Of a DNA stretch of 64,000 nucleotides, positions 52,392 to 59,676 are shown in pieces. The position numbers and the translations under genes were made by a program. The stretch spans positions 62,001 to 126,000 of the forward strand of contig NZ_JABWDU010000008.1 in assembly GCF_013371465.1 (NCBI RefSeq), written 5' to 3'. Source of the stretch: Ensifer oleiphilus. GTDB taxonomy: Bacteria > Pseudomonadota > Alphaproteobacteria > Rhizobiales > Rhizobiaceae. A model generated the notes under the pieces. It worked only from the letters and a program-made list of their open reading frames with translations. It was not told where the DNA came from and ran no database searches. Each line of letters opens with the position of its first letter. The first letter of the stretch is position 1.

Positions 52392-52799
52392 CTAAAACGC
52401 AGAGACGCGAGCTGCGGCATGATATCCCGCGGTCGCGGCAATCGCGGTCAGGGCCGCGCCCCAGATCATGTCGACGATCGTCAGCGTCAGCGACCAATTG
52501 CGAAGCGTCGCCAGATTGCTGAGGTCATACGTGCCATAGGCGACGAGCCCGAGAATGGCCCCTGCCATCAGCGCAGTGGTCCAGCTCCCTGCTTGAAGTG
52601 CTGGAGATACGGCGAAGTAGACGATACCGGCCACGTAAATCACGTAGAAGGCGCCTGCGGCGCTCAAGTTGGGTTGATCAAGCAGCAGCCCGCCCAATCG
52701 CTCGCGATAGAACCCGGATGCGACACGCATGAGCCACAAAAAATCCAGAACCAGGAACACGAATGCGGTAGCGAGGTACGCGACGACATGCACCAGCAT
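52392..52799 (-). CDS. DUF2177 membrane protein
   Basis: 135-residue protein with four predicted transmembrane helices and the DUF2177 pattern: DFLWL near the start, FYVIYVAGIVYFAV in the middle and GTYDLSNLATLRNWS near the end. ATG 52799 is preceded by GGGAG at eight bases; a TTG just before it is less suitable. It is 31 bp downstream of the ChrR-like gene on the same strand and probably co-transcribed with the sigma factor, making it part of the stress regulon. Function unknown. Confidence 0.85.
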   Translation of the reverse strand: MLVHVVAYLATAFVFLVLDFLWLMRVASGFYRERLGGLLLDQPNLSAAGAFYVIYVAGIVYFAVSPALQAGSWTTALMAGAILGLVAYGTYDLSNLATLRNWSLTLTIVDMIWGAALTAIAATAGYHAAARVSAF

Positions 52800-52830
52800 C
52801 AAGTCTGCTCCCTTCGGATGGGCCGATCGC

Positions 52831-53499
52831 TCATATTCCGAGCACCGGCTGGATGAGCCGGACCAACCAGCTCTTGAACTTCAAAGGCGCATCGGTGACT
52901 GCAAGGCATATGCAATCCTCACCTTCGCTTGCCAGAGGTTGATGCGTGAGGCCGGCATCCGCCTCCTCCAGATCGCCGCGCGCAAAGACATCGCTGCCAT
53001 CGCGGAAACTTCCGGCGAGCACGAGGGTCAGTTCCTGCCCCGAGTGGCCATGCTCAGGAACGGGCTTGCCGGCCGGTATCCTCAGCAGCCTTGCAATGGT
53101 GCTGGTATCGGCCAAGCGGATCGGGATCTGGTAGGCCCCCATCCCGAGCGAGCGCCATTTGAGGCTGTCGATATCGCCGCCGAGATAAGAACGCAGCGGC
53201 TCCGGCAAGATTGGCTCGGCACGGGCCACCGACAGGCGGCCTTCCGTTGGATGCGAAACGCCCGTTGCCGCATTCTCGAGCCTGCTGCGCATGCGAGCCC
53301 AGGCATCATCGGGTGCCGTGCCAGTCGATATGTTTTCGAGAAGCGCTCCCCCGATCGTCTCCATCTTCGCCAGGCGTTGGCGACAGGACGGGCAAAGCGC
53401 AAGATGCGTGGCAACCGCAAGGCTCCAGCCTTCCGCCAGTTCGCCCGAAGCATAGCGCAACAGCAACTCGTCGCTGACGTGGTGGTTGATCGACATCAT
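52831..53499 (-). CDS. chrR: ChrR-like zinc anti-sigma factor
   Basis: 222-residue anti-sigma factor. The N-terminal domain has the zinc-binding H-x3-C-x2-C motif (THLALCPSC) that clamps the sigma factor; the C-terminal cupin domain has PEHGHSGQELTLVLAGSFRDG with metal ligands. In Rhodobacter sphaeroides ChrR releases RpoE in response to singlet oxygen and organic hydroperoxides. The ATG overlaps the sigma stop by ATGA, assuring stoichiometric translation. Confidence 0.93.
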   Translation of the reverse strand: MMSINHHVSDELLLRYASGELAEGWSLAVATHLALCPSCRQRLAKMETIGGALLENISTGTAPDDAWARMRSRLENAATGVSHPTEGRLSVARAEPILPEPLRSYLGGDIDSLKWRSLGMGAYQIPIRLADTSTIARLLRIPAGKPVPEHGHSGQELTLVLAGSFRDGSDVFARGDLEEADAGLTHQPLASEGEDCICLAVTDAPLKFKSWLVRLIQPVLGI

Positions 53500-54062
53500 C
53501 GCTCCTCCAATGCTGCGCGCAGCTTGGCAAAGGCGAGACGGATACGCGACTTCACCGTGCCGAGCGGGATCGAGAGGGCCTCGGCAATGGCGCTGTGGGA
53601 GTCGTCCTCGTAGAAGGAACGCTTCAAAAGATCGAGCTGCTCGGCCGGCAATGTCGCCATCGCGCGGTGCAGCCGCTCGGCCTCCTGAAACGCCTCAAAC
53701 GCCATGTCGGCAGGCGGCGCATCATCCTGAACGAAGGCGGGATCATTCAGGTCGAATTCTGGTCGCTTCGTCCGGCGGTAGACATCGATCCGCACGTTTC
53801 GAGCAATCGTATAGATCCAGGTCGAGACGGTGCCACGCGAAGGCTCAAACTGGGCTGCCTTGTTCCACACGACCATCATAGTTTCCTGCATCAGTTCTTC
53901 GGCGGCAGTCCCATCCCTGCAGAGACGCGCCATATAGGCCTTCACGCGCGGCGCGTAGTGGCGAAACAGCACCTCGAAGGCCTCGACATCCCGGTTCAAC
54001 CCGACCGAAACAAGCAAGTCGGACATATCGTTCGTCGGTGGTTCCTGGTCGTTTTCATCCAT
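53496..54062 (-). CDS. rpoE: ECF sigma factor, RpoE (ChrR-controlled) type
   Basis: 188-residue group IV sigma factor. Region 2 (about 20-90: FEVLFRHYAPRVKAYMARL, WIYTIARNVRIDVYRR) and region 4 (about 130-185: LPAEQLDLLKRSFYEDDSHSAIAEAL... GTVKSRIRLAFAKL) are intact. I choose ATG 54062 because its predicted promoter (54180-54205) would start transcription near 54173, downstream of the longer frame's start at 54206. It activates its own operon and two neighbouring units through (T/C)GATCC-N16-CGTA. Confidence 0.93.
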   Translation of the reverse strand: MDENDQEPPTNDMSDLLVSVGLNRDVEAFEVLFRHYAPRVKAYMARLCRDGTAAEELMQETMMVVWNKAAQFEPSRGTVSTWIYTIARNVRIDVYRRTKRPEFDLNDPAFVQDDAPPADMAFEAFQEAERLHRAMATLPAEQLDLLKRSFYEDDSHSAIAEALSIPLGTVKSRIRLAFAKLRAALEER

Positions 54063-54179: not shown

Positions 54180-54205
54180 TACGGAACGCTGGAACGGGCG
54201 GATCA
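54180..54205 (-). promoter_or_regulatory. RpoE-type promoter of rpoE-chrR-DUF2177
   Basis: On the minus strand TGATCC (54205-54200) is followed after 16 bases by CGTA (54183-54180). The R. sphaeroides RpoE element is TGATCC with a TA-rich -10 about 18 bases on, which this matches. Start expected near 54173. Confidence 0.75.
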
Positions 54206-54231
54206 CCGCGCCGAAAAATTATTCGGGCGAT

Positions 54232-54257
54232 CGATCCAATCGCGACACGGCTTCGTA
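54232..54257 (+). promoter_or_regulatory. RpoE-type promoter of the FAD oxidoreductase operon
   Basis: CGATCC (54232-54237), 16 bases, CGTA (54254-54257). It differs from the neighbouring minus-strand promoter only in the first base and has identical spacing. Start expected near 54265, some 27 bases before the ATG. Confidence 0.7.
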
Positions 54258-54291
54258 CTGATGAGCAGGTAAAAACGTGAGAGGTTCGTGA

Positions 54292-55644
54292 ATGGATGTC
54301 GGGGGCAGAGAAAAGCGGCAACAGCGGCGCGTTGCGGTCATCGGAACCGGCATTTCAGGCCTTTCCGCAGCGTGGCTGCTCAGCAAGAGCATGGATGTCG
54401 TTCTTTATGAAGAAGCCGACCGCCTCGGAGGGCATGCCAACACCGTGACCGCGCCTTCACCGATCGGCCCGGTGTCGGTCGATACCGGCTTTATCGTCTA
54501 TAACGACCGTAACTATCCTAACCTCGTGGCGCTCTTCGACCACCTCGACGTCCCGACGCTTGCCTCCGACATGTCGTTCTCGGCATCGCTCGATGGCGGA
54601 TCTTTCGAATACTCAGGCTCCGGATTGCGCGGACTTCTCGGCCAGAGGCGAAATGCGGTGCGTCCGCGCTTCTGGCGGATGCTGTCGGAAATCGTCCGGT
54701 TCTATCGCGAGGCGCCGCCCCTGCTTCGGCAACCGGAGTTCGAGGCGGTCTGCCTCGGCGACTATCTCGACCGCGGCGGCTACGCCCGCTCCTTCGTCGA
54801 CGATCACCTGCTGCCGATGGGTGCAGCCATATGGTCGACAACGGCCAGCGAAATGCGCGCCTATCCGCTGCATGCCTTCATCCGCTTCTTCGAAAGCCAT
54901 GGCCTGCTTTCCCTTTCGAACCGGCCGCGCTGGCGAACCGTGGACGGGGGCAGCCGCCAATATATTCAACGGCTGATGGCCGACTACTCGGGTTCCGTGA
55001 GGCTCGCGAGCGCCGTGCGCAGCGTCCGCCGTATCGGTGGTGAGGTCGAGGTCGTGGATCGGCGCGGTCATCTCGACCGTTTTTCGGATGTGGTCATCGC
55101 CACCCATGCGGACCAGGCACTTGCGATGCTGGACGATCCCGACGGCCAGGAGCGCCATCTGCTGTCGGCCTTCAAATACACGGCCAATGATGCGGTTCTC
55201 CATTGCGACGAGACCCTGATGCCCCGGCGCAAGCAAGTCTGGGCGAGCTGGAACTATATCGGCGACAGCGCGCACGAAGGCGTAAAGCCGCTCTGCGTGA
55301 CATATTGGATGAACCGGCTGCAGGGCATCAATCCGTCGGCGCCCCTGTTCGTGACACTGAACCCCTGCCGCCCGGTTGCACCGGAGCGCACGCTTGGAAC
55401 TTTCGCCTACACCCACCCACTCTTCGATCAGGCCGCCCTCGTGGCGCAACGTCAACTCTGGCAGTTGCAGGGACGCCGCAACACTTGGTTCTGTGGTGCC
55501 TATTTCGGCAGCGGCTTTCATGAGGACGGACTACAATCGGGCCTCGCCGTCGCGGAAGAACTCGGCGGCGTCGATCGACCCTGGGCGGTTCACGAGCCGT
55601 CAGGCAGAATTTTCCGCAGCGAAGCATTGTTGGCAGCCGAATGA
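54292..55644 (+). CDS. FAD-dependent amine-oxidase-like oxidoreductase of the RpoE regulon
   Basis: 450-residue flavoprotein with an N-terminal Rossmann motif VAVIGTGISGLSAAWLLS and the RLGGHANTV segment of amine-oxidase/phytoene-desaturase-like enzymes; FCGAYFGSGFHEDGLQSGLAVAEEL near the end completes the FAD site. Homologues occur next to DUF1365 and cyclopropane-fatty-acid synthase genes in RpoE-ChrR regulons and are thought to act on membrane fatty acids. GAGAGG precedes ATG 54292. It overlaps the DUF1365 gene by ATGA. Confidence 0.9.
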   Translation: MDVGGREKRQQRRVAVIGTGISGLSAAWLLSKSMDVVLYEEADRLGGHANTVTAPSPIGPVSVDTGFIVYNDRNYPNLVALFDHLDVPTLASDMSFSASLDGGSFEYSGSGLRGLLGQRRNAVRPRFWRMLSEIVRFYREAPPLLRQPEFEAVCLGDYLDRGGYARSFVDDHLLPMGAAIWSTTASEMRAYPLHAFIRFFESHGLLSLSNRPRWRTVDGGSRQYIQRLMADYSGSVRLASAVRSVRRIGGEVEVVDRRGHLDRFSDVVIATHADQALAMLDDPDGQERHLLSAFKYTANDAVLHCDETLMPRRKQVWASWNYIGDSAHEGVKPLCVTYWMNRLQGINPSAPLFVTLNPCRPVAPERTLGTFAYTHPLFDQAALVAQRQLWQLQGRRNTWFCGAYFGSGFHEDGLQSGLAVAEELGGVDRPWAVHEPSGRIFRSEALLAAE

Positions 55645-56459
55645 GCTTGAAATCCGCGATATACACCGGGCACGTCGCCCATGCCCGCCATCGCCCCCGC
55701 TCACACCGGCTGCGTTACCGCGTGTTTTCGCTGCTGCTCGATCTCGACGAACTGCCCAGCCTCGGCACGCGCAGCCGATTGTTCGGCTACAACCGCGCGG
55801 CCATCTTCAGTTTTCGCGACGAGGATCACGGCGATGGCAGCAGAGGCGGTTTGAAAGGCTGGGTCGGCCGACAGCTGGAGGACGCCGGACTGCCGGCGGA
55901 TGACCTGCGTGTGCGCGTGCTCTGCTATCCTCGAATTTTCGGTTACGTCTTCAACCCGCTGACCGTCTACTTCTGCTACCGGCCCGACGACAGCCTGTGC
56001 GCCGCGCTTTATGAAGTCTGCAACACCTTCCACGAGCGCCACACCTACGTCATTCCGGTCGGCGAACCATCCGGTGGCTCGATCAGGCAGCGTTGCGACA
56101 AGGCGCTCTACGTGTCGCCGTTCACCCCCATGGCAAGCCGCTACGACTTTCGCGTCGAGCCGCCAGTTGAGCGCGTTTTCGTGGGGATCAATCAGTCGGA
56201 CAACGATGGTCCGCTTCTGGCGGCGAGCTTTGCCGGAAAACATGTCGCTTTCTCTGACAAGGCGCTGCTGAAGCTGCTTCTCGCCTATCCCCTGATGACC
56301 CTGAAGGTCATGGGCGCGATCCATGTGGAGGCGTTTCGGCTATGGCTGAAAGGCGTGCCCGTTCATCCGCATTCGGCAGCAAACCTGCCGCGCGCCACCA
56401 CCATCGTCGTCGAGGAAAGCGTTTTGCGGCCGAGCGACGCGAAAGCACGGGCCAGTTAA
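55641..56459 (+). CDS. DUF1365 protein
   Basis: 272 residues beginning SLKSAIYTGHVAHARHRPRSHRLRYRVFSLLLDLDELP, the typical DUF1365 opening. RVLCYPRIFGYVFNPLTVYFCYR and NTFHERHTYVIP are further family blocks. Translationally coupled to the FAD oxidoreductase. The family travels with that enzyme and a cyclopropane-fatty-acid synthase in many Proteobacteria and probably takes part in the same lipid modification. Here the synthase is missing: a gene on the other strand ends only nine bases later. Confidence 0.92.
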   Translation: MSLKSAIYTGHVAHARHRPRSHRLRYRVFSLLLDLDELPSLGTRSRLFGYNRAAIFSFRDEDHGDGSRGGLKGWVGRQLEDAGLPADDLRVRVLCYPRIFGYVFNPLTVYFCYRPDDSLCAALYEVCNTFHERHTYVIPVGEPSGGSIRQRCDKALYVSPFTPMASRYDFRVEPPVERVFVGINQSDNDGPLLAASFAGKHVAFSDKALLKLLLAYPLMTLKVMGAIHVEAFRLWLKGVPVHPHSAANLPRATTIVVEESVLRPSDAKARAS

Positions 56460-56468
56460 CAGCTCACC

Positions 56469-57257
56469 TCAATCGCGCAGCATTCGTCGCGTGATCGCAA
56501 ATCTCAGGCGGGCGGGCATCAGCCTCAAGGCTTTCATTGCCACAGCCATCTGCCAGGGGAAGATGATCTCGTAGCGGCGCGCCTTCAGCCCGCGCGCTAT
56601 TATTGCCGCCGCCTTGTCCGCCGGCACGAGGAACGGCATCGGAAAATCGTTCTTCTTCGTCAGAGGCGTATCGACGAAACCGGGATTGATCAGGCTGAGA
56701 TCGATCCCCTGCTTGCGGAGGTCAGGATAGAGCGCCTCGCACATGGCAATCAGCGCCGCCTTGCTCGCGCCGTAGGCCGCCGCACCCGGCAAGCCGACGA
56801 GGCCGGCCGTGGAGGCGACGACGGCGATGTGCCCGCTGCCGCGCGCGAGCATCTGCGCCATGACCACTTCCAGGCAATGCACCGTGCCGAGAAGGTTCAG
56901 ATTGACGATCGATGAGAAGCGGGCAGCATGGAAATCCCGCACACCATCGCGCGCGTATGTACCGGCCGAAAACACCGCGAGATCCACCGGCCCGAGGCGG
57001 TCCTCGATCAGGCCGAAGGTTTTGGCGACAGCCGCACCGTTGGTCACGTCGAGCGGAAATGTAAAGATCTGGCCGGGAACGGCATCCTCAAGCGCCAACA
57101 GATCCTCCTTGCTGCGCGCGCTGACGGCGACCTCCCAACCCTCGCGCGCCAGTTCCACCGCAAGCGCGCGCCCGATGCCGCTGCTGGCGCCAGTGATCCA
57201 GGCAATCCCGGCGGTTCCGGAAGTCTTGCGCCTCATTGTCTCAACAACCAATTTCAT
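56469..57257 (-). CDS. Short-chain dehydrogenase of the RpoE regulon
   Basis: Classical SDR of 262 residues: cofactor motif TGASSGIGRAL, NAG-equivalent FSAGTYA, catalytic Ser in VASTAGLVG and YGASK containing the Tyr-x3-Lys pair. The C-terminal tail has a basic amphipathic stretch (PARLRFAITRRML). Substrate unknown; SDRs of this type accompany the FAD/DUF1365 pair in related stress regulons. ATG 57257 chosen from several in-frame starts; GTG 57299 and ATG 57236 remain possible. Last gene of the operon starting at 59599. Confidence 0.87.
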   Translation of the reverse strand: MKLVVETMRRKTSGTAGIAWITGASSGIGRALAVELAREGWEVAVSARSKEDLLALEDAVPGQIFTFPLDVTNGAAVAKTFGLIEDRLGPVDLAVFSAGTYARDGVRDFHAARFSSIVNLNLLGTVHCLEVVMAQMLARGSGHIAVVASTAGLVGLPGAAAYGASKAALIAMCEALYPDLRKQGIDLSLINPGFVDTPLTKKNDFPMPFLVPADKAAAIIARGLKARRYEIIFPWQMAVAMKALRLMPARLRFAITRRMLRD

Positions 57258-57309
57258 CACCCGAACGATATTTCGACATATGCAGATACGGTGTGCCACG
57301 GCAGATGGT

Positions 57310-58638
57310 TCACATCGCCTCGATCTTTTGCCTCAAGGCGCGCTGCTCGACCTCCCCGATCGGAAAACGCCACATCAGCGCAATCGCCGCGAGCTTGGCG
57401 GGGATCGGTAGCCAGGCGTAAAGCATCGAAAGCGCATTGAGCGCTTCGGCGGAATTGTTGCCCTCACCCGAAAACCCGGCAAGGGCAAGCAGCGGAAAGA
57501 CGATACCGACTGCCGCGGCAAGCGACAGCTTGGTCGCAAGGCTCCAGGCCGCGAAATAGAGGCCGGACCGCTGTTCGCCCGAAGAGGCCGTATCCTGATC
57601 GATCACATCCGCCTGGATGGCAGGGGGCAGCACCAGATCGAAACCGAGCATCAAGCCCGTCGCGACGCAGATGGCAACGAACAGATAGACATCGCCCGGC
57701 CCAAGAAAGCCGGCCACGGCGAAGATGGCGCACGCCACGGCCATTGCGATGCACCAGGCCCGATGCTTGCCGAGGAAGCGGGCGGAGAAAAGCGCAAGCG
57801 GAACGCCCGCAAGTCCGCTGACGAAATAGGCAAGCAGCAACGGCCCGCTCCATTGCGGCGCCTCCAGCCGCTGGCCAACGAAATAAAGGAACAGCGTTGC
57901 CGGAACGGCATTTGCAAAACCGTTCAAGACAAAGGCAAGGATCAGCCGCCTGAAGGGCCTGTTGGCAGCAAGAAACCGCCCCGCATCTCCAAGCGAGAGA
58001 CGATGCCTCGATCTGTCCTGTGGTTCGGGCACGCAAAGGAATGCGACGCAGGCCGCAAATGGCAGAAACACCGCGACAAAGACAGCGAGCGGTTGAAGGC
58101 CGACTGGGCTCGACAGTGCCCCATCGCCGACCGCGAATGGCAGACCAATAGCGCATACCGTGCCGATCAGCGTTGCGCCCTCTCTCCAGGCGGATACGCT
58201 CAGGCGACCCGAATAGTCGTTCGCCAGTTCCGCTCCCCAGGCGGAATAGGGCAGCAGCGTGCCCGTGTATCCGAGCGACAGAACGGTTCCCCAAAGAGCG
58301 AGATAGGCAAGCCCGGCATCGTCCGGCGGCCAAAACAGCATGAAGGCGCCAAGCGCGGTGGGGGCGGACGCGACCAGAAACAGCGTGCGCCGGCGGCCGG
58401 CCCTCGCGCTGATCCGGTCCGACAGCCAGCCGATGGCCGGATCGGCGATCGCATCGACAATTCGGATCGCGAGCAGCATAAAACCGACTGCGCCAAGCGG
58501 CAAACCGAGCGTGCTCACATAAAAGGTCGGAACGACGATGTAGAGTGGCAGGGCGAGCGCCGCCAGGACAACCGCGGGCAGCGCGTAGGCAAGCAACAAG
58601 CGGCTTGTCAGCGGGTGCTGGCCTGAGCGAAGCGTCAT
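57310..58638 (-). CDS. MFS transporter, GPH/MelB-like
   Basis: Twelve-helix major-facilitator protein (442 residues) of the glycoside-pentoside-hexuronide:cation symporter type. The motif DPAIGWLSDRISARAGRRR between helices 2 and 3 is diagnostic. Helix 4-5 contains LLPYSAWGAEL. ATG 58638 gives an ATGA overlap with the DUF3833 gene; the frame to 58671 would overlap it by 37 bp. In RpoE-type clusters such MFS genes may handle lipids rather than sugars. It lies 52 bp before the SDR. Confidence 0.9.
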   Translation of the reverse strand: MTLRSGQHPLTSRLLLAYALPAVVLAALALPLYIVVPTFYVSTLGLPLGAVGFMLLAIRIVDAIADPAIGWLSDRISARAGRRRTLFLVASAPTALGAFMLFWPPDDAGLAYLALWGTVLSLGYTGTLLPYSAWGAELANDYSGRLSVSAWREGATLIGTVCAIGLPFAVGDGALSSPVGLQPLAVFVAVFLPFAACVAFLCVPEPQDRSRHRLSLGDAGRFLAANRPFRRLILAFVLNGFANAVPATLFLYFVGQRLEAPQWSGPLLLAYFVSGLAGVPLALFSARFLGKHRAWCIAMAVACAIFAVAGFLGPGDVYLFVAICVATGLMLGFDLVLPPAIQADVIDQDTASSGEQRSGLYFAAWSLATKLSLAAAVGIVFPLLALAGFSGEGNNSAEALNALSMLYAWLPIPAKLAAIALMWRFPIGEVEQRALRQKIEAM

Positions 58639-59141
58639 CGCCGGGACCGTCGGAATGTGACGTTCGTCCATGCAACGGGCAGGCCGTACTTCGTCACAAG
58701 CGCCGTGTTTCTGACCTCGCCGTCGTCGCCGAGCACCATGAGGTCGTGGAACCGGACTTTGTTCTTCCGGGCAGCGTCGAGATAGACGACATAGGAGAAC
58801 CGCGCCTTGCGGCCTTCGATCCTGACTGGCACGCTGCCGACCACATCCTCACGCGAGCCGAGATATTCCCCCGGCCCCGTCTTGCGAAACCGCCAGGTCT
58901 TTGTATCCCGCGCACCATCATCGAATGTAAAGTCTTCGCGAAGCGTCAGCGTCTCTCCGTTCCAGCGCCCCAGCAAGGCGACCGAGAACCGTCGCGACAC
59001 ACCGTTGATCGCGGTGAAACTGCCGGTCGCCTGGGATTTGCCCACGAAGTAGCGTTCCAGCGAGAAGACGGGGTCTCGCGCCTGAGCAAAGATCGGGAAT
59101 GCGAAGATTGAAACCAGGAAGGCAATGGCCACCATACGCAT
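58635..59141 (-). CDS. DUF3833-like lipocalin-type secreted protein
   Basis: 168 residues with a signal peptide (MRMVAIAFLVSIFAFPIFAQA). The mature chain follows the DUF3833 pattern: FSLERYFVGKSQATGSF, LLGRWNGETLTLREDFTFDDG, and a late LVTKYGLPVAWTNVTFRR. Beta-rich, probably periplasmic. GGAGG six bases before ATG 59141 decides the start over a longer frame to 59216. DUF3833 regularly belongs to the RpoE-ChrR lipid-stress cluster, which supports the call. Confidence 0.83.
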   Translation of the reverse strand: MRMVAIAFLVSIFAFPIFAQARDPVFSLERYFVGKSQATGSFTAINGVSRRFSVALLGRWNGETLTLREDFTFDDGARDTKTWRFRKTGPGEYLGSREDVVGSVPVRIEGRKARFSYVVYLDAARKNKVRFHDLMVLGDDGEVRNTALVTKYGLPVAWTNVTFRRSRR

Positions 59142-59212
59142 AAAGAACCTCCCGTGGTCGACGGTTGTCGCAAGAGTTGAAGTCGGTTTGGCTCGAACGG
59201 CGGTGCACCTTG

Positions 59213-59599
59213 TCATAGCGCCGGCCCGATGCGCGCGGTTCCCTTGTCGCCGTTGTTCTGGATCCAGCGGATGCGCGTTTCATCGAGGCGGTAAAGCTCG
59301 AAACAGAGCTGCGAACCGTCGTACCAGGTGCTGAACTTCTGGCAGAGCCGGTCACCGTCTATCCACCAAGTGCCGCTATCGCGTGGGCGGGTGAACTTTC
59401 CCAGCCCCAAAGCTTCGCCAGTACCATCGACGCGGCCGTCACGGCGGTAGTTCAACGGGAACTCTCCGCCGAACGGAACGGCAAGAAACACCGTCCTGCC
59501 GACGATCTGGTCGCGGATGTTTTCGGCCGACAGTCGGTCCGATGCCGCATGACTGGAATGGGCAACGAGCATGAACAACAATACGATCAGCAGACGCAT
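59213..59599 (-). CDS. Small secreted protein, possibly DUF995-like
   Basis: 128 residues with signal peptide MRLLIVLLFMLVAHSSHA. The mature part has DQIVGRTVFLAVPFGGEF, RRDGRVDGTGEA, GTWWIDGDRLCQKF and SQLCFELYRLDE; the two cysteines may form a disulfide. This Gly-Thr-Trp/Leu-Cys pattern recalls DUF995-type periplasmic proteins, but I cannot confirm the family. GGAGGAG lies just before ATG 59599. First gene of the four-gene operon with DUF3833, MFS and SDR. Confidence 0.75.
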   Translation of the reverse strand: MRLLIVLLFMLVAHSSHAASDRLSAENIRDQIVGRTVFLAVPFGGEFPLNYRRDGRVDGTGEALGLGKFTRPRDSGTWWIDGDRLCQKFSTWYDGSQLCFELYRLDETRIRWIQNNGDKGTARIGPAL

Positions 59600-59650
59600 A
59601 CGCTCCTCCATATTGCATTGGGGGGACGGGTCAGGTTCTTCCCTGAGAGG

Positions 59651-59676
59651 TACGCGGCATCGCTCGCCTCGGATCA
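59651..59676 (-). promoter_or_regulatory. RpoE-type promoter of the DUF3833-MFS-SDR operon
   Basis: On the minus strand TGATCC (59676-59671), 16 bases, CGTA (59654-59651): identical hexamer, spacing and -10 core to the rpoE promoter at 54180-54205. Start is expected near 59644, 45 bases before ATG 59599. Confidence 0.78.

Follow-up and report, generated by a model that had tools for sequence, protein, structure and literature searches.

A predicted RpoE-ChrR regulon in Ensifer oleiphilus, with two uncharacterised protein families among its likely members

Genes and candidate promoters of the rpoE-chrR locus

We analyzed a 64,000-nucleotide stretch of Ensifer oleiphilus DNA (contig NZ_JABWDU010000008.1, positions 62,001 to 126,000 of the forward strand; hereafter the window), which carries the genes of an RpoE-ChrR stress circuit. 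The rpoE gene (53496..54062, minus strand) encodes an extracytoplasmic function (ECF) sigma factor with Sigma70_r2 and Sigma70_r4 domains; because its frame is open upstream to a GTG at 54206, its start is a chosen codon. It directly precedes chrR (52831..53499, minus strand), and the two genes overlap by 4 bases. The chrR product is an anti-sigma factor with a cupin-like domain (PF12973), which scores 216 bits against TIGR02451 (cut-off 124.5) and whose translation carries, as judged by eye, an H-x3-C-x2-C zinc motif. The last gene of this putative transcription unit (52392..52802, minus strand) encodes a DUF2177 membrane protein (PF09945, 158 bits). Among named ChrR loci, those of Ensifer adhaerens Lc04 and Sinorhizobium sp. 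A49 are the nearest, with 91% identity at the protein level.

Divergently from rpoE lies a gene for a flavin adenine dinucleotide (FAD)-dependent oxidoreductase (54292..55644, plus strand; PF01593/PF13450), followed by a DUF1365 gene (55641..56459, plus strand; PF07103, 268 bits). From their families and gene order, which place them as RSP_1091 and RSP_1090 in Rhodobacter sphaeroides, we match this pair to UfaD and UfaO, two enzymes of the furan fatty acid pathway (PMC7380195). A predicted operon convergent with this pair is headed by a gene for a small secreted protein of 128 amino acids (59213..59599, minus strand), which has no Pfam match and a signal peptide recognized by eye. It is followed by genes for a DUF3833 protein (58635..59141; PF12915), an MFS transporter of the GPH symporter type (57310..58671; PF13347), and a short-chain dehydrogenase (SDR; 56469..57257; PF00106), all on the minus strand. 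The transporter, DUF3833, and SDR genes are the putative counterparts of RSP_1089-1087, the DUF3833 protein being likened to RSP_1088 by position and size alone.

Three sites of one layout precede these units: TGATCC-N16-CGTA at 54180..54205 (minus strand) before rpoE-chrR-DUF2177, CGATCC-N16-CGTA at 54232..54257 (plus strand) before ufaD-ufaO, and TGATCC-N16-CGTA at 59651..59676 (minus strand) before the operon of the secreted protein. The distances from the end of the site to the chosen start codon are 117 nucleotides (nt) for rpoE, 34 nt for the FAD gene, and 51 nt for the gene of the secreted protein. An initial annotation of this DNA had described these three sites, and each was found with its position and sequence as described. 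In the whole window, YGATCC-N16-CGTA occurs six times, compared with 0.11 expected in shuffled sequences. The remaining three matches (18698+, 48808-, and 53786+, the last being antisense within rpoE) were dropped as promoters since all are intragenic. The three retained sites are almost certainly RpoE (ECF11) promoters, as predicted from their sequence and setting. The initial annotation saw the regulon correctly, but it missed the UfaD/UfaO identity of the FAD/DUF1365 pair and the fact that this arrangement is already known and is conserved.

Conservation of the sites and the regulon beyond the window

Conservation was examined in the 30 best-scoring ChrR loci of a class search and a family search, with the own locus excluded from both; one class locus without an rpoE match and one that was too short left 27 usable class loci. 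TGATCY-N16-CGT stands before rpoE in 28/29 family loci (shuffle mean 0.08) and in 21/27 class loci (0.06). It is also present in 9 of 14 named contigs and in all three plasmid loci; in no set does the shuffle mean exceed 0.08. Two of the five named loci without the N16 site have a spacing of 15 before rpoE. All three sites of the window recur in three named plasmids.

The promoter of ufaD is conserved in a looser form. [TCA][GA]ATCC-N16-CGTA precedes this gene in 25 of 26 family loci, and only nine carry the strict TGATCY-N16-CGT. In most of the near relatives (L164-L189), the -35 element of ufaD reads CAATCC or AATCC, whereas the divergent rpoE promoter keeps TGATCC, and CGATCC before ufaD recurs in Rhizobium daejeonense and Aminobacter. 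Therefore, the CGATCC of the window appears to be a conserved promoter with a clade-relaxed -35 element. This relaxation fits the degenerate cGATC and aGATCC variants reported to respond in Pseudomonas syringae (PMC5507510). An A/T-rich stretch is often seen between the divergent ufaD and rpoE promoters of L164-L189. CAATCC-N16-CGTA occurs at three places in the own genome, and the regulon proteins gave no blast match at those three loci.

In the whole genome (6.76 Mb, Ensifer/Sinorhizobium-like), we found 23 exact matches to YGATCC-N16-CGTA, of which 6 are promoter-placed, 16 are intragenic, and 1 lies between genes in the wrong orientation, according to our own calling of open reading frames. 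The surroundings of all 17 matches outside the window were read; 13 are intragenic, one is intergenic and misoriented, and three are well placed. At a random promoter-placed rate of 4.0%, a background derived from the window plus the stretches fetched, the probability of six or more such placements among 23 is 2.4e-4. When the window is excluded, as its sites had been chosen by eye, the probability of three or more among 17 is 0.029.

The three well-placed remote sites, which stand before genes of families known as RpoE targets, indicate that the regulon is larger than the window, although the initial annotation had called it complete. Two of them lie together (L062:3094-5565, contig C26), one before a DPRP photolyase-related gene that is followed by an SDR gene, and the other, CGATCC-N16-CGTA, before a CMAS gene just past the DPRP/SDR genes. 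The third is a TGATCC-N16-CGTA located 80 nt before a fasciclin-domain gene (L069:2483-2508, contig C30). The remote CMAS protein is 65-68% identical to the CMAS proteins encoded in the ufa clusters of Kaistia and Pseudorhizobium (L042/L043). In these two genera, two E. adhaerens plasmids (that of CTYH.Ch1 among them), and a plasmid of R. daejeonense, a CMAS gene fills the slot between ufaO and the SDR gene. This slot is empty in the window, where ufaO ends at 56459 and the SDR gene at 56469, as well as in L039-L041 and Aminobacter. The remote CMAS gene is therefore likely to be ufaM, and we read it as relocated and yet kept under predicted RpoE control.

A second style of rpoE-chrR locus was observed in Rhizobium johnstonii 3841 pRL12 (L197) and E. 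adhaerens W2-B9 p1 (L198). It carries DUF1295, CMAS, DUF2147, and DUF2177 genes, and L197 adds genes for a lipocalin and TspO. No [TCAG][GA]ATCY-N16-CGTA was found before the genes of the second-style locus in L197.

The small secreted protein and DUF2177 families

Among 199 family genomes, 44 encode relatives of the secreted protein (E <= 0.001). Seven of these matches are weak (E 5e-6 to 6e-4) and were excluded from the co-occurrence tests; the 37 strong ones represent 26 of the 109 genera in the family sample. A TGATCY-N15..17-CGT site lies within 220 nt upstream of the gene, at -51 to -98, in 18 of the 29 loci fetched in addition to our own. A looser count gives 20/29 loci, compared with a shuffle mean of 0.18, but two of these (L155/L158) are doubtful. 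In both, just 6 nt separate the end of the match from the start used, and a scan with the alternative start choice found no site upstream of the gene; therefore, we use the count of 18. The site is also present in three of four named loci and in all three plasmid loci. The spacer is 15 in six loci (L138-L142 and L157).

A full-length ChrR, taken as a match of at least 117.9 bits (n=89, including three genomes just below the curated cut-off), is encoded in 34 of the 37 genomes with the secreted protein, compared with 55 of the remaining 162 (Fisher 5e-11, uncorrected for shared ancestry). Counted by genus, the figures are 24/26 and 31/83 (7e-7, likewise uncorrected). Three genomes with a strong match lack a full-length ChrR, and the two loci fetched from them (G342 and G384) also lack the site. 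The gene does not keep to one setting. It lies between the DUF3833 and MFS genes in L042, before an SDR gene in R. daejeonense, and before a DPRP gene in L137, and in 13 of the 18 motif-bearing loci its 1.5-kb flanks yielded no other regulon gene. The initial annotation placed this protein in the regulon, and the upstream motif together with the co-occurrence with ChrR makes membership of the family well supported, as predicted from sequence.

The secreted protein has a hydrophobic N-terminus that resembles a Sec signal by eye, and two cysteines are invariant across 30 sequences of the family. Its structural model is beta-rich and of moderate confidence (predicted local distance difference test score, pLDDT, of 77). 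Among the best 50 of 838 fold matches, the weak hits are mostly small barrels (designed, lipocalin-like, and avidin-like), with a best E value of 0.0084 and template modeling (TM) scores mostly below 0.5, the best being 0.54/0.67 (TP0435). Searches of the family against Pfam gave no match, apart from a weak one of DUF7319 (E 0.26) with one of five members, and comparison with the sequences of solved structures gave nothing above noise. A relationship to DUF3833 or DUF2147 was rejected on an hhalign probability below 1%, although the profiles were shallow (4 and 2 sequences).

Of the 29 family loci, 17 have the DUF2177 gene immediately after chrR and four have it nearby in another arrangement. 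Where it is detached, it can have a site of its own: TGATCC-N16-CGT in L177 and L190, TGATCC-N16-CGTA located 31 nt upstream in E. adhaerens W2-B9 (L198), and TGATCT-N16-CGT in the Paracoccus-type loci L047-L051, which are mutually close relatives. In the class sample, DUF2177 occurs in 31 of 289 genomes, and ChrR exceeds the cut-off in 21 of these 31 compared with 79 of the other 258 (Fisher 9e-5). The upstream scan covered 24 readable loci out of 30, our own included. In addition to the loci with a strict site, two readable ones have a weaker site, and all five site-bearing loci are in genomes with ChrR; a match in L082 is intragenic and was left uncounted. The model of DUF2177 has four long helices (pLDDT 88), and a fold search against the PDB gave no useful match (best E 2.8). 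DUF2177 is supported as a frequent predicted operon partner of chrR in the family sample. Its placement in the regulon by the initial annotation is supported by this adjacency and by the sites of detached genes. Because it is often away from ChrR and without a strict site of its own, however, we regard it as accessory to the regulon and not as universal.

Assessment of the regulon and its proposed function

The locus very probably encodes an ECF11 RpoE-ChrR circuit responding to singlet oxygen or peroxide stress, with the regulon proposed above. Several results weigh against this assignment or restrict it. The rpoE site was missed in 6/27 class loci, 1/29 family loci (L189), and 5/14 named loci, and 11 of the 29 loci of the secreted protein lack TGATCY-N15..17-CGT in the 220 nt upstream, nine of them in genomes with ChrR. 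No DUF2177 gene was present within the fetched 3.6 kb in 8/29 family ChrR loci; in the class sample, this gene lies within 5 kb of ChrR in only 5 of 31 genomes that have it, and only 3 of 24 readable loci (L077, L079, and L096) have a strict site of their own upstream of it. Counterparts of other R. sphaeroides targets (rpoHII, folE2, and cycA) were not recognized behind any of the six promoter-placed exact sites. Raw genome counts at N16 show little or no excess over other spacings, with TGATCC found 6 times compared with a mean of 6.0 per spacing (N6-N26), and CGATCC 17 times compared with 12.0; the TGATCT variant gives 155 matches over the same range. Counts by spacing were accordingly rejected as proof of the motif. 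The genome-wide search proposed by the initial annotation is favorable in terms of promoter placement (6/23 compared with 4.0%) but not in terms of the raw N16 count. Because the raw counts show no clear excess, conservation is the main argument, and the strength of the finding lies in the position and conservation of the sites rather than in their number.

The sites of rpoE and ufaD could be genuine with the secreted protein and DUF2177 as passengers: their motif or place would have been inherited with the cluster without being selected. Both genes do sit within the cluster in Ensifer and in the named plasmid loci, which would fit a shared history of neighbors, and most DUF2177 genes of the class sample are neither near ChrR nor behind a strict site. 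However, the secreted-protein site persists in the 13 loci whose flanks yielded no further regulon gene, the gene joins different operons (L042, R. daejeonense, and L137), and the site is missing from G342 and G384, where a full-length ChrR is also missing. Detached DUF2177 genes likewise have their own sites in L177, L190, L198, and the Paracoccus-type loci. We therefore consider passengers improbable. Less probable still is that a different ECF sigma factor reads the sites or that they match by chance: motif counts hardly exceed those of other spacings, and conserved sites are reported before phrB in P. fluorescens strains without the sigma factor (PMC5507510), but conservation at orthologous positions far exceeds that in shuffles, rpoE has a putative autoregulatory site, the published consensus is matched (PMC5507510, PMC5036791, PMC4336711), and the secreted protein co-occurs with ChrR.

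RpoE-ChrR circuits described in other bacteria support the assignment as membership of a known class. R. sphaeroides (RSP_1092-1093, RSP_1091-1087, RSP_2143-2144, and RSP_1409) shares the sigma/anti-sigma pair, and its published promoter layout, TGATCC(N15)GCGTA (PMC5036791), matches the sites found here, as the initial annotation had claimed. Its regulon is described as having 15 members, including the fasciclin protein RSP_1409, and RSP_1090/91 and CfaS as required for full RpoE activation (PMC7074977). The two systems have in common the furan fatty acid genes, the trio of SDR, MFS, and hypothetical proteins, a photolyase, CMAS, and a fasciclin protein (PMC7074977, PMC7380195). In contrast to R. 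sphaeroides, the counterparts of RSP_1089-1087 here belong to a separate predicted operon in convergent orientation, with the secreted-protein gene at its head; the CMAS gene is remote, and the photolyase relative is a DPRP-type gene. Here chrR is followed by DUF2177; neither this family nor the secreted one was looked for in R. sphaeroides.

The RpoE2-ChrR system of Shewanella oneidensis also has TGATCC and CGTA sites, one of which precedes a DPRP gene; this gene, listed with an SDR, is reported to be induced by RpoE2 (PMC4336711). Its other targets differ (pgpD-hemH2 and a Lon-domain gene), and neither DUF2177 nor the secreted family is named in the available portion of that paper. The chromatin immunoprecipitation sequencing consensus of PSPTO_1043/1042 in P. 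syringae is TGATCC-N16-CGTA, as here, whereas the extended regulon differs from the present one (PMC5507510). In Stenotrophomonas maltophilia, rpoEc-chrR-chrA with smlt2375-2367 is described as controlling CMAS, FAD, membrane, and small periplasmic proteins; the small periplasmic protein is an annotated lipocalin, unlike the unmatched secreted protein of the window (PMC11832516). In the open-licence literature, to the extent of the text it provides, we found neither DUF2177 nor the secreted family placed in any bacterial RpoE regulon. The circuit itself is known; what our sequence comparisons suggest anew is the membership of these two uncharacterized families.

By analogy with R. sphaeroides and other species, ChrR would hold RpoE in the absence of stress, and the loss of ChrR upon stress would allow RpoE to read the TGATCC/CGATCC-N16-CGTA promoters. 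Three outputs are predicted in the window. The first would comprise RpoE and ChrR, with the membrane protein DUF2177 from the same predicted transcript. The second would be UfaD and UfaO, which together with the CMAS methylase UfaM, probably encoded remotely under its own site, should yield furan fatty acids. The third would be the operon of the small secreted protein, the DUF3833 protein, the GPH-type MFS transporter, and the SDR. At other loci, the photolyase-related protein with its SDR, the CMAS gene, and the fasciclin protein would be produced.

Our guess is that DUF2177 and the secreted protein take part in the handling of envelope or lipid damage. A more specific proposal, which we hold to be unlikely, is that the barrel-like secreted family and DUF2177 serve as dedicated partners in the envelope for singlet-oxygen sensing based on furan fatty acids, both tuning the turnover of ChrR. 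The periplasmic protein would then bind or clear oxidized products of furan fatty acids, and DUF2177 would handle modified membrane lipids. In Chlamydomonas, SAK1 is reported to be needed for the singlet-oxygen induction of a DUF2177 gene, and the same SAK1-dependent set includes CFA1, CFA2, DUF1365, DUF1295, and a fasciclin-like gene (PMC4067076). This set shares families with bacterial RpoE-ChrR clusters and regulons. If the two proteins were such envelope partners, the SAK1 response would represent a parallel eukaryotic use of the same protein set.

The present analysis gives two uncharacterized families a predicted regulatory address within a circuit much of whose output is poorly understood. 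Both families are therefore direct candidates for envelope defense when soil- and plant-associated bacteria face singlet oxygen.

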